Assembly (NCBI GenBank): GCA_016742275.1 | Contig: JACVCD010000013.1 | Span: 62,001-126,000, forward strand | Origin: Gemmatimonadaceae bacterium | GTDB lineage: Bacteria > Gemmatimonadota > Gemmatimonadetes > Gemmatimonadales > Gemmatimonadaceae | Direction: 5' to 3' | Length of the DNA: 64,000 bases | Shown here: piece by piece, positions 19,864 to 41,404 of the stretch | How the letters are laid out: each line of letters starts with the position of its first letter | Numbering within the stretch: position 1 is the first letter of the stretch | Position numbers and translations under genes: made by a program | The notes under the pieces: generated by a model | What the model was told of the DNA's origin: nothing | Database searches by the model: none | Seen by the model: the letters and a program-made list of their open reading frames with translations, nothing else

Positions 19864-19899
19864 AACGGGCACCCTACTCTGTTGAGTAGGGTGCCCGTT
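19864..19899 (-). terminator. Terminator of the first PEP-CTERM gene
   Basis: Perfect 16-bp inverted repeat: AACGGGCACCCTACTC and GAGTAGGGTGCCCGTT around a 4-nt loop. Read on the minus strand it is followed by TTTTGCG, so it terminates the gene ending at 19932; it is 33 nt beyond that stop. Confidence 0.82.
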
Positions 19900-19931: not shown

Positions 19932-20780
19932 TCAGGCGTTGTTGCGGCGACGCGCCACGCCAACGAGACCGGCAAGGCCAGCGGCAACCAGCGCGAAGCT
20001 GGCCGGCTCGGGCACCTGCGTGCTGCCCTTGTAGGTGATCTGGCCGCAAAGCTTGCGCTCAGCGTCACCGGTAAAGGTGGCCGGAAGGCTGTTGTCCACC
20101 GAACCCTGGCAATAATTGGCTGACGTGTTGGGCTGGTTGTTGGTCCAGTTGTCGAAGCCAGTGTAACGGAACTCGTAGTTGTGCCCGTCGAGCGAAAACG
20201 CCACCGGGTTGTTCATCGCGTACACAGCGATTCCATCGGGCTCGTCGGTGTTGTAGCAACCACCGCCAAGCCACCACGGAAGGCACGAAGTCGAGTACTG
20301 CTCTACTCCTTGGATCTGCAGATTGTTGTTCAACGCGAGCGAACCGTTGGCGAACGTCAGATTCATCGAAAGGTAAGCGCTGACGAGATCATCACCGCGG
20401 ACCTGATCGAAATTGAAGTAGCCGAGGTACAGATTCTGGGTCGATCCGACCGAGCCGAAAGACAACAGGCGATTGTTGCCATTGCTGGCGGGGCCGCCCG
20501 GCCAGTCAACGCTATTGTTTGCGGCGTTGCTGTTGTTGTACTCGTTGATCTCGAAGTCGATGCTCGAGCGGCTGGAGGAGCCGTCGTTGCTGTCCCAGGA
20601 CATCGTGGTCGACGTGCTGTTGGACAGGTTACAGTTCGCGATCGTGACGCGATTGGCGGGGTTCGGTGCGCCGAAGCATGCGGTCGAACCAAACCAGGTC
20701 AGGTTCTGGGCCTGAACCGGTGCGGCGGCCAGCATCGTCGCTGCCGCTGCAAAAAACCACTTGTGATTGCTCTTCAGCAT
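19932..20780 (-). CDS. PEP-CTERM sorting-domain protein, paralogue 1
   Basis: This is a 282-residue secreted protein. The start ATG at 20780 is chosen because it gives a standard signal peptide (KSNHKWFFAAAATMLAAAPVQAQ); an upstream in-frame ATG would add 17 residues lying inside the leader. The C-terminus is a PEP-CTERM tripartite tail: VPEPASFALVAAGL, a hydrophobic helix, then ARRRNNA. In diderm bacteria exosortases cut such tails and anchor or release the protein at the cell surface. The mature part is Asn/Ser/Thr/Gly-rich, with a conserved Cys near the N-terminus (TACFG) and a C-terminal pair (NYC ... LCGQITY) that could form a disulfide. It is homologous to the two genes that follow. The precise function is unknown. 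Confidence 0.88.
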   Translation of the reverse strand: MLKSNHKWFFAAAATMLAAAPVQAQNLTWFGSTACFGAPNPANRVTIANCNLSNSTSTTMSWDSNDGSSSRSSIDFEINEYNNSNAANNSVDWPGGPASNGNNRLLSFGSVGSTQNLYLGYFNFDQVRGDDLVSAYLSMNLTFANGSLALNNNLQIQGVEQYSTSCLPWWLGGGCYNTDEPDGIAVYAMNNPVAFSLDGHNYEFRYTGFDNWTNNQPNTSANYCQGSVDNSLPATFTGDAERKLCGQITYKGSTQVPEPASFALVAAGLAGLVGVARRRNNA

Positions 20781-20831: not shown

Positions 20832-20847
20832 TGCAGTGTCCGTGCCA
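20832..20847 (-). promoter_or_regulatory. Sigma-54 (-24/-12) promoter of PEP-CTERM gene 1
   Basis: The minus strand reads TGGCACGGACACTGCA, against the consensus TGGCACG-N4-TTGCW; only the first T of TTGC differs. The lower edge is 52 nt from the start codon at 20780. Equivalent elements precede the two sister genes at 55 and 54 nt. Confidence 0.8.
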
Positions 20848-20965
20848 GAACATGAAATATTGTATAACTATCCGTAAGTTGTTGCATTAAATCCACTTAG
20901 AAGAGTTCTTGATATTCCGGCTGTTTCAATTAGCCGTGTCTATTGATAGGCCGAGTATGTGCTAC

Positions 20966-20998
20966 GCATCACCTGTCGCATGAATGCAACATCACAAA
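20966..20998. promoter_or_regulatory. Candidate enhancer (UAS) upstream of PEP-CTERM gene 1
   Basis: The element GCATCAC...TGTCGCATGAA...CAACATCACAAA recurs at 21996-22030 upstream of gene 2. It contains a near palindrome, TGTCGCA-TGAA-TGCAACA. Its edge is 119 bp from the sigma-54 element, against 118 bp for gene 2, which suits a DNA-bound enhancer-binding protein. Confidence 0.5.
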
Positions 20999-21004
20999 TG
21001 CGCG

Positions 21005-21033
21005 AAGGCACTCCATCCGAAGATGGAGCGCCT
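21005..21033 (-). terminator. Hairpin downstream of PEP-CTERM gene 2
   Basis: The stem AAGGC-A-CTCCATC pairs with GATGGAG-C-GCCTT (one mismatch). On the minus strand the loop is TTCG, a stable tetraloop. It lies 38 nt past the stop at 21071. The downstream T-tract is poor, so termination strength is uncertain. Confidence 0.55.
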
Positions 21034-21070
21034 TTTCGCCCGGTCAGAAGACCAGCTCGCCTAGTTCGTA

Positions 21071-21808
21071 TTAGACTTCGCGGCGACGGCGGGCGACGCC
21101 AACGAGACCAGCGAAACCAGCGGCAACCAGCGTGAGGGTCGCGGGCTCAGCGACCTGGGCAGCCTTCTTCTCAAACTGGCCGCAGAGCTTGCCATTGTTG
21201 GCTTCCGTGTACTGACCGGTCGACGGGATGGCGTCGTAGTCCTTGCAGTAGTTGGCGGCGCTACCCGGATGCGGGGTATCGAATCCGACAACGGCAAACC
21301 GGTACTGATCACCGCCAACCGTGAACCAGTCCGACCATGCGCCACCACTGAAGCTGAAGCGCTCAGCCGAACTGCCGCGATCGTCATAGTTGACGGTCAG
21401 TCCAGAGTACGCCCACTCACCAACGTAGCCGGCGAAGGTAAACTCGAACTTCAGCGTGGTGCTGCGATCACCACCGTTGTTGCTGTTATCGGAAAAGTAG
21501 AAATAGCCGAGATTGAACGTGTTCGAGAGATTGTTCGCCCCAAAGGTGAGCGCGCCGGGCGTGGCCCGCTCGAACATGAAATAGTCATCCTGTGAAGAAT
21601 AGGTGCCGGGCATGCTCCACCACGTATTCGTAGCGTTGCTGCTGCATGCCGTTACGCTGTTGCCGTTGGAGCTCTGGTGACCAGTGGTCGAGCCCGACTG
21701 GTTCTGGAAACACGCGTCGACTCGCGTCGCGGACAGCTGAGCGGAAGCCGGGGAGGCTCCGACCGTAGCAGCAATCGAAGCCGCCAGGATGAGGATTTTC
21801 TTGTTCAT
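21071..21808 (-). CDS. PEP-CTERM-type secreted protein, paralogue 2 (AEP variant)
   Basis: This 245-residue protein starts at the ATG at 21808, giving the signal peptide NKKILILAASIAATVGASPASAQ. The C-terminal tail is VAEPATLTLVAAGFAGL, a hydrophobic helix, then ARRRREV, so the usual PEP is replaced by AEP. As in its sisters, there is a Cys near the mature N-terminus (DACFQ) and a late NYC ... LCGQ pair. The middle is rich in Asn, Ser, Gly and aromatic residues (NLGYFYFSDNSNNGGD), resembling beta-sandwich surface proteins. Cleavage by an exosortase is likely but less certain given the altered tripeptide. It has its own sigma-54-type promoter. Confidence 0.85.
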   Translation of the reverse strand: MNKKILILAASIAATVGASPASAQLSATRVDACFQNQSGSTTGHQSSNGNSVTACSSNATNTWWSMPGTYSSQDDYFMFERATPGALTFGANNLSNTFNLGYFYFSDNSNNGGDRSTTLKFEFTFAGYVGEWAYSGLTVNYDDRGSSAERFSFSGGAWSDWFTVGGDQYRFAVVGFDTPHPGSAANYCKDYDAIPSTGQYTEANNGKLCGQFEKKAAQVAEPATLTLVAAGFAGLVGVARRRREV

Positions 21809-21862
21809 GCGGTGGGTCTCAATGGTTGAGAGTGCTCTGTAATCGAACGTACTCGACCATAA

Positions 21863-21878
21863 TGCAGATTGGATGCCA
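21863..21878 (-). promoter_or_regulatory. Sigma-54 (-24/-12) promoter of PEP-CTERM gene 2
   Basis: The minus strand reads TGGCATCCAATCTGCA. The invariant GG and GC are present at correct spacing, and CTGCA matches the gene 1 element. It sits 55 nt from the start codon at 21808. Confidence 0.72.
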
Positions 21879-21995
21879 CAAAACGAAACGTGGATCAATT
21901 TCTTGTAAATCGTTTAAATAAAATAACTTATGGAATTTCCGGATAATCGAATTCCACTTCCATTTGTCGGAAGACAGCGTGCGGAAAGTGTGCGT

Positions 21996-22030
21996 GCATC
22001 ACAGTTGTCGCATGAAGACAACATCAGAAA
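21996..22030. promoter_or_regulatory. Candidate enhancer (UAS) upstream of PEP-CTERM gene 2
   Basis: GCATCAC-AGT-TGTCGCATGAA-GACAACATCAGAAA, sharing an identical 11-mer TGTCGCATGAA with the element at 20966. It contains the perfect 6-bp inverted repeat GTTGTC / GACAAC with a 7-nt spacer. Confidence 0.5.
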
Positions 22031-22035
22031 AACAA

Positions 22036-22067
22036 AAAGGCGCCTTGTCCGAAGACAAGGCGCCTTT
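22036..22067 (-). terminator. Terminator of PEP-CTERM gene 3
   Basis: Perfect 14-bp stem, AAAGGCGCCTTGTC and GACAAGGCGCCTTT; on the minus strand the loop is TTCG and the next bases are TTGTTTTTC. It lies 37 nt beyond the stop at 22105. Confidence 0.88.
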
Positions 22068-22104
22068 CTCACCTGGCCACCAGGCCAGTTACATCATTTG
22101 AAAT

Positions 22105-22932
22105 TTAGACTTCGCGGCGACGGCGGGCGACACCGACGAGGCCGAGGAGACCGGCGCTAACGAGGGCGAAGGTGGCCGGCTCGGAAACCTTCACATCGCC
22201 AACATACTCGATCTTGCCGCAGATATTCTTGGTCTCTGAGCTGCTGCCCAAGCTCTGCGTGAACTGAGAAACATCTCCGTACTCACCGCACTGCGAATTG
22301 CCGGTATCAAAACCCAAGATGCGGAACTGATACTTCTTGTTGTCGGCTTCGAAGTACCGCCAGCCTTCATCCAGCGGAAAGCCAGCCATGTTGTTGGAAT
22401 TGTTGTTTCCAGGCTGATTGATCCAATCGAACGTCACACCCTGGTTGCTTCCGCTGTCGTCGATGTTGGCGCTGACAGCACCGCTGTAGTCGAAGTAGGT
22501 CGACGCCGTCAGGTAGAGACGCAGATTGAATCCCGTCACATAATCACTGGTGTAGCCGCTCGTGTTGCCGTTGACCCAGGACATCGTGCCGAGGTTGAAC
22601 ACCTGGTACGAATTGCCACCAACGGTACCTTCCCATGGCGTTAGCGGCATTGTGCTGGCGTCGCCCGGGCCACCAAAGGCTGAATTCCGCTGGTAGCTCA
22701 GTGAACTCGTGTTCCAAGGCGACTGCGAGTTGGAACGCGATGACCATGAAATCTGGACATTGTTGTCCGAGTTTCCACAATTCGTTTCTACGGTGTTTTG
22801 GTAGTTCGAGCCGCTAGGAAACGCAGGTGACGGGGACGTCCAGCAACCGTTGATACCATGAACGGTTTGCGCCTGAAGCGGCGCCGCCGCGAGCAGAGCC
22901 GCAGCTGGGAGAAGAAAACCGAGCTTCTTCAT
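22105..22932 (-). CDS. PEP-CTERM-type secreted protein, paralogue 3 (SEP variant)
   Basis: This 275-residue protein starts at the ATG at 22932, giving the signal peptide KKLGFLLPAAALLAAAPLQAQ; an upstream in-frame ATG adds only five residues. The tail is VSEPATFALVSAGLLGL, then ARRRREV, with SEP in place of PEP. The mature chain begins near INGCWTSPS (conserved Cys), has many Asn/Ser/Gly and Trp/Tyr residues, and carries the family's late Cys pair (SQCGEYGD ... ICGKIEYVGD). The similarity of tail, signal peptide and Cys positions to the two genes beside it indicates tandem duplication. Likely surface-exposed or matrix-associated; no enzymatic motif seen. Confidence 0.85.
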   Translation of the reverse strand: MKKLGFLLPAAALLAAAPLQAQTVHGINGCWTSPSPAFPSGSNYQNTVETNCGNSDNNVQISWSSRSNSQSPWNTSSLSYQRNSAFGGPGDASTMPLTPWEGTVGGNSYQVFNLGTMSWVNGNTSGYTSDYVTGFNLRLYLTASTYFDYSGAVSANIDDSGSNQGVTFDWINQPGNNNSNNMAGFPLDEGWRYFEADNKKYQFRILGFDTGNSQCGEYGDVSQFTQSLGSSSETKNICGKIEYVGDVKVSEPATFALVSAGLLGLVGVARRRREV

Positions 22933-22985
22933 GATGGAGGAGGGCAATTGGTGGCTGGTGGGTTAATGAACTCGCCGCCATAAAG

Positions 22986-23001
22986 AGCAGATCCTGTGCC
23001 A
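22986..23001 (-). promoter_or_regulatory. Sigma-54 (-24/-12) promoter of PEP-CTERM gene 3
   Basis: The minus strand reads TGGCACAGGATCTGCT, matching TGGCAC-N5-(T/C)TGCW with correct GG-GC spacing. It sits 54 nt from the start codon at 22932. Confidence 0.75.
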
Positions 23002-23102
23002 ATCATCACAAAGCAACATGAACCAGAGTTAAATCGAACAATATCAATGTTTAAACAATCTTCCTGTTTTTGGTAACACATTTGTGACCGGAGACACCTG
23101 TA

Positions 23103-23140
23103 GTATGTATTCGACATCATGTTGTTCACAAAATACATAC
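23103..23140. repeat. Inverted repeat upstream of PEP-CTERM gene 3
   Basis: Perfect 9-bp arms GTATGTATT (23103-23111) and AATACATAC (23132-23140) with a 20-nt AT-rich spacer, centred about 120 bp upstream of the sigma-54 element. It does not match the element shared by genes 1 and 2 except for a TCACAAA stretch, so its role as an enhancer is only positional. The rest of the 311-nt gap (22933-23243) holds the promoter above and the terminator below. Confidence 0.45.

Positions 23141-39274: not shown

Positions 39275-41404
<2,130 letters not shown>

Follow-up and report, generated by a model that had tools for sequence, protein, structure and literature searches.

A predicted sigma-54 regulon for PEP-CTERM genes in Gemmatimonadota, similar in layout to PrsK/PrsR control and different in enhancer and candidate activator

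Three PEP-CTERM genes and their upstream regions

The DNA analyzed here, called the window, is a 64,000-nt stretch (C24:62001-126000) of a 4.57-Mb draft genome of the genus Gemmatimonas. Three PEP-CTERM genes lie on its minus strand: gene 1 (19932..20780), gene 2 (21071..21808), and gene 3 (22105..22932), the start-codon ends of which encode MLKSNHKW, MNKKILIL, and MKKLGFLL, respectively. All 3 products carry a signal peptide and exceed the PF07589 cut-off of 20.7 bits (28.3, 21.0, and 21.5 bits, respectively), and the C-terminal sequence of the gene 1 product reads VPEPASFALVAAGLAGLVGVARRR. The gene 1 product is weakly similar to the floc_PepA and THxN families, and all 3 proteins stay below the floc_PepA cut-off of 80 bits (NF033554; 37, 12.1, and 14.3 bits). 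Because the tail of gene 1, which scores 28 bits on PF07589 as a protein, escaped the genome-wide family search, PEP-CTERM gene counts per genome are lower bounds. Each gene is followed on its 3' side by a terminator-like hairpin on the minus strand. The hairpin of gene 3 (22036..22067) is a 14-nt perfect inverted repeat with an A-run on its left (plus strand) and separates this gene from the enhancer of gene 2, and those of gene 2 (21005..21034, imperfect) and gene 1 (19865..19898) were read from the sequence.

The sequence-only reading of this DNA had assigned a sigma-54 (-24/-12) promoter to each gene, and all 3 minus-strand elements were recovered: TGGCACGGACACTGCA at 20832..20847, 52 nt from the ATG of gene 1; TGGCATCCAATCTGCA at 21863..21878, 55 nt from the ATG of gene 2; and TGGCACAGGATCTGCT at 22986..23001, 54 nt from the ATG of gene 3. 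The element of gene 2 is kept in orthologues in which the flanks have diverged, and the -24/-12 boxes of gene 3 are likewise kept in orthologues. The GG, T, and GC are retained in all 3 sites, with GG and GC ten bases apart, and the -24 block reads TGGCAC in two of them and TGGCAT in the third. The same reading had noticed no such element elsewhere in the window, and for exact matches this holds: TGGCAY-N5-YTGCW occurs there at these 3 sites only. Allowing one mismatch gives 11 matches versus 10.3 in shuffles. Across the genome, the strict pattern TGGCAY-N5-CTGCW matches 19 times versus 20 for the reversed control. There is thus no excess, and the evidence lies in the position of the sites and not in their density. 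By our own arithmetic, the chance of a match in 3 given 60-nt windows at the genome density is of the order of 1e-12.

Upstream of each -24 box we found a further element that the sequence-only reading does not mention, an 18-nt palindrome of the form TGTtGC-N6-GCaACA that resembles an enhancer (upstream activator sequence, UAS). It is present as TGTTGCATTCATGCGACA at 20974..20991, 126 nt upstream of the -24 box of gene 1 (19.0 bits), as TGTTGTCTTCATGCGACA at 22006..22023, 127 nt upstream of that of gene 2 (16.8 bits), and as TGTCGAATACATACTACA at 23099..23116, 97 nt upstream of that of gene 3 (14.2 bits, the weakest of the three). These bit scores were obtained with the matrix described below, whose training set consisted solely of sequences upstream of the activator gene in other genera.

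Sigma-54 sites and palindromes across the genus

Positional enrichment was analyzed in 146 non-identical, filtered PEP-CTERM upstream regions of the genus. To count as a site, a sequence had to contain GG-N10-GC, agree with the consensus at 6 or more of 8 additional letters, and lie upstream of the start codon at a distance of 40-100 nt. This rule was set after the 3 window sites had been seen, but it matches the accepted consensus and was applied to genes and genomes other than those from which it arose. Sites were present in 64/146 regions compared with 1.85 +/- 1.46 in dinucleotide shuffles, with near-duplicate promoters weighted equally, and the opposite strand of the same regions gave 3. 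They form a sharp peak 40-80 nt before the start codon and collectively read TGGCAYG-N4-TTGCW, which we take to be the classical sigma-54 consensus. In 306 kb of the genome, both strands included, the same rule finds about one GG-N10-GC-type site per 100 windows of 61 nt. The sequence-only reading had held that an equal density of sites elsewhere would speak against a regulon; the strict pattern indeed shows no genome-wide excess over its reversed control, but the enrichment before PEP-CTERM genes, which that reading had proposed to test, is position-specific across the genus and decides the matter. The rpoN gene it had asked for is present in a single copy (C23:99621; PF04552, 216 bits) with a complete sigma-54 DNA-binding domain.

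A de novo search 5' of the -24 box returned the TGTtGC-N6-GCaACA palindrome with a log-likelihood ratio (LLR) of 293 versus 18-32 in shuffled DNA. It usually lies 80-130 nt upstream of the -24 box (median 115 nt), and GCAACA is enriched in PEP-CTERM upstream regions (64 versus 15 expected). CATGA-N8-TCATG dyads were also considered and rejected, the motif search giving them an LLR of 56 versus 293. When the upstream regions of orthologues are aligned, conservation is concentrated in the palindrome and the -24/-12 boxes, which form islands amid diverged sequence. Genome-wide, the palindrome gave 41 matches versus 31 in the control as a loose pattern, and 13 versus 24 with one mismatch, 3 of these 13 preceding PEP-CTERM genes. 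Since there is no clear genome-wide excess, most single matches are due to chance, and a match carries information only when its position is considered as well. The sole perfect TGTTGC-N6-GCAACA in the genome (C32:15238-15255; L319) has neither a sigma-54 site nor a PEP-CTERM gene in its neighborhood and is probably a chance match.

Some promoters have the palindrome and lack the GC at -12. A de novo search on this set gave tGGCACg.a..TTGa. as the best motif (LLR 163 versus 43 shuffled), that is, a sigma-54 promoter with GA at -12. Of the genus regions, 64 have C and 19 have A as the last -12 base, and none has G or T; accepting GC or GA raises the regions with a site to 83/146 versus 3.6 in shuffles. 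The remaining consensus is better in the GA class (at least 7 letters in 17/19 versus 35/64; Fisher P = 0.0045), and these TTGAW promoters nearly always have a strong TGGCACG-type -24 box. They are located 42-97 nt before the start codons at L031, L033, L057, L070, L087, L122, L134, L161, L165, and L167, among others. Under the strict -12 GC rule, the palindrome and the sigma-54 site are not significantly associated (P = 0.17); when GC and GA are both counted they co-occur (P = 0.0013), a post hoc result, as the GA class was recognized only after looking at the data. About 40% of the PEP-CTERM regions of the genus, and half of those in this genome, where only about 9/18 have a sigma-54 site, lack a recognizable one. 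L032 has a perfect -24/-12 element and no good palindrome, and therefore other activators may act there.

A candidate activator at the exosortase locus

NtrC-family enhancer-binding proteins (EBPs) such as NtrC, NifA, and AtoC consist of REC, AAA+ (with GAFTGA), and Fis HTH domains, and have palindromic sites about 100 bp upstream. The genome encodes about 12 activators with a sigma-54 domain. One of them lies in the window (39275-41404, minus strand). The sequence-only reading placed the activator outside the window, which calls for a qualification: a sigma-54 activator gene is there, although it is probably not the relevant one. It encodes a GAF-AAA+-Fis protein with the loop GAFSGA; judging by the GAF domain, this protein may act like AcoR and have no connection with the PEP-CTERM genes.

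The candidate activator is encoded at C29:343286-344785. It has the domain order of NtrC, NifA, and AtoC, REC-AAA+(GAFTGA)-Fis, with PF00072, PF00158, and PF02954 above cut-off and no NCBIfam equivalog above cut-off among the matches listed, and the palindrome likewise lies about 100 bp upstream of the predicted promoters. What sets it apart from those proteins is its genomic context and the shared sites, which indicate a link to EPS export and PEP-CTERM genes. A histidine kinase gene adjoins it. The same locus contains the single exosortase of the genome (C29:331480; PF09721, 157 bits) and genes over the cut-offs of TIGR02602, TIGR03006, and TIGR03019, including pepcterm_polyde and pepcterm_femAB. 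By the exosortase and these XrtA-associated EPS genes the locus is XrtA-type, with the exosortase below the cut-off of the XrtA-specific model TIGR03109 (174.7 versus 208 bits). A PEP-CTERM gene inside the locus, L042, has its own palindrome and sigma-54 site. The partner kinase (L096:6892-7704) is small (270 aa); it has HisKA and HATPase domains but lacks a recognizable sensor domain. Between the kinase gene and the XrtA-system polysaccharide deacetylase gene lies a citrate synthase gene (L096:7781-9148), which is found near the activator in 21/80 loci and is 88-91% identical in the closest ones.

These 80 loci come from genome records with relatives of the activator, nearly all of them from Gemmatimonadota. 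Of the 80, 73 have the kinase gene next to the activator gene, 50 have a divergent wzc-like gene, and 38 have a gene for an SLBB exporter; within the genus, 21/30 genomes have one strong match to the activator. A de novo search upstream of the activator at 74 loci returned the same TGTtGC-N6-GCaACA palindrome (LLR 334 versus 20 shuffled). The coding control downstream of the EBP also gave a high LLR (192), which corresponds to an unrelated, coding-like motif. We then built a matrix from the 64 loci outside the genus (activator <77% identical), so that no PEP-CTERM promoter of the genus was in the training set. At 12 bits or more, this matrix found sites in 66/144 PEP-CTERM upstream regions of the genus, versus 1.9 in shuffles and 1/144 in coding sequence, and at 14 bits in 44/144, versus 0.4 and 0. 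The reverse test, with a matrix derived from the PEP-CTERM palindromes, found sites at 36/64 activator loci versus 0.68. At 27 palindrome-bearing activator loci, sigma-54-like sites directed toward the EPS operon were found in 10 cases, versus 1 on the other strand. In this genome, the candidate activator has a moderate palindrome nearby (14.6 bits), and its divergent operon showed no clear sigma-54 site. In other lineages, PEP-CTERM genes near the activator (L227, L233, L281, L284, L285, and L288) are likewise preceded by the palindrome, which lies about 200-280 nt from the start codon. Those at L281, L284, L285, and L288, from other Gemmatimonadota, encode proteins with an MRxRxxAx-type N-terminus, lie within 10 kb of the activator, and have the palindrome 214-225 nt before the start.

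Relation to the PrsK/PrsR system and a proposed mechanism

Haft et al. (2006) reported that proteobacterial PEP-CTERM genes are preceded by two motifs, one for sigma-54 and one for an activator, which they linked to PrsK/PrsR/PrsT and, within their set of species, saw only in Proteobacteria (PMC1569441). Their motif 1 has 17 nt, ends in TTTACA, and lies on average 62.8 nt from the -24 box, and prsR sits near EPS/exosortase genes (PMC1569441). The betaproteobacterium Aquincola tertiaricarbonis, which has prsK/prsR, transcribes pepA in an RpoN-dependent manner from an experimentally mapped start, with the promoter TGGCAC / CTGCTT (PMC9850573). Our search of the open literature on PEP-CTERM regulation in Gemmatimonadota found one passing mention, in a transcriptome paper, and nothing further. 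Common to both systems are single-gene PEP-CTERM units with a sigma-54 -24/-12 element about 50-70 nt in front of them, an activator site upstream, and an NtrC-family response regulator in the EPS/exosortase locus. The window sites also resemble the Aquincola promoter, with CTGCW blocks and TGGCAC in two of the three; unlike pepA, the window proteins match floc_PepA only below its cut-off. The system in the phylum Gemmatimonadota differs in its enhancer, which is the 18-nt palindrome and not the 17-nt motif, and in the longer spacing between this site and the -24 box (median 115 nt versus the mean of 62.8 nt; PMC1569441). The link to PrsK/PrsR drawn by the sequence-only reading thus survives only as an analogy, and the prsK/prsR genes it had suggested looking for were absent by curated cut-offs: the best genome score was 396.5 bits for PrsR (TIGR02915, cut-off 502.6) and 105 bits for PrsK (TIGR02916, cut-off 300), the latter from the kinase domain only. 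Since the tests that define PrsK/PrsR failed, we do not file the Gemmatimonadota regulon as a member of that system. The top TIGR02915 homologue (C29:229855) was considered as the activator and rejected: its neighbor is a gene for a membrane histidine kinase and not the EPS genes, and it lacks a good palindrome.

That the matches arise by chance in GC-rich DNA is scarcely credible: the strict pattern shows no genome-wide excess, in line with chance, but the enrichment over shuffles is about 35-fold and specific to both position and strand. It is also highly improbable that the 3 elements are functionless relics of one promoter copied by tandem duplication. The genes are paralogues (34-38% identical to gene 1) that share some repeated sequence in their upstream regions; against this, the flanks have diverged while the palindrome and the -24/-12 boxes persist in the paralogues and in orthologues of other species, and unrelated PEP-CTERM genes elsewhere in the genome and the genus share the arrangement.

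A diverged member of the classical PrsK/PrsR (PEP-CTERM-box) system would explain the EPS/exosortase neighborhood, as known for prsR (PMC1569441), and the form of the window promoters, as mapped at Aquincola pepA (PMC9850573), and TIGR02915 is the second-best NCBIfam model for the candidate activator. We regard this as quite unlikely, because that match (360 bits) is far under the cut-off and exceeded by four other activators of the genome, PrsK was not found above cut-off in the genome, the spacing is larger, and the TTTACA core at the 3' end of motif 1, the part of the logo that was compared, occurs in 9/144 PEP-CTERM upstream regions versus 8.6 expected, while GCAACA is enriched. A possible reading, to which we give limited credence, accepts the sigma-54 regulon as real but assigns the palindrome to some other NtrC-type activator among the roughly 12 of the genome, so that the exosortase-locus activator gene would be just one target of that protein. 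Regulator genes can be preceded by a palindrome that serves a different regulator, and the partner kinase of the locus has no recognizable sensor domain. However, among the eight activator genes of this genome examined with their flanks, the palindrome scores best at the one in the exosortase/EPS locus, and the link between palindrome and activator recurs across the phylum.

Altogether, rpoN, the genus-wide positional enrichment, the footprint-like conservation, and the upstream palindrome strongly support the sigma-54 regulon for PEP-CTERM proteins that the sequence-only reading had proposed. We consider it likely that Gemmatimonadota have such a regulon, working like PrsK/PrsR control with a different activator and enhancer, the activator most likely being the exosortase-locus protein, an assignment based on shared sites and gene neighborhood. 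In the mechanism that we propose, each window PEP-CTERM gene would be a single-gene unit, with sigma-54 RNA polymerase waiting as a closed complex at the -24/-12 element, which lies about 50 nt upstream of the start codon. Dimers of the NtrC-family response regulator, most likely the C29:343286-344785 protein paired with the adjoining histidine kinase, would bind the palindrome about 100-130 bp upstream; once phosphorylated, the regulator would oligomerize, loop to the polymerase, and drive open-complex formation. Because the palindrome lies upstream of both the activator gene and the divergent EPS-export operon across the phylum, export of the matrix polysaccharide and PEP-CTERM surface proteins may be switched on together. 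We lean toward a more specific form of this proposal, in which a Gemmatimonadota-specific matrix regulator, a two-component NtrC-type activator distinct from PrsR, would use one palindrome to co-activate EPS export and PEP-CTERM genes via sigma-54, with a promoter subclass that combines TTGA at -12 with a near-perfect -24 box.

This sigma-54/UAS switch recurs across the genus and points to a regulator in the EPS locus, which would make it a variant of a type of control known to date from Proteobacteria. If true, a second phylum would use the same promoter logic with another activator and another enhancer, suggesting convergent or rewired control. It would also give a concrete activator, site, and target list for a phylum in which very little is known of gene regulation, and a route to asking what PEP-CTERM proteins do in the biofilm matrix.
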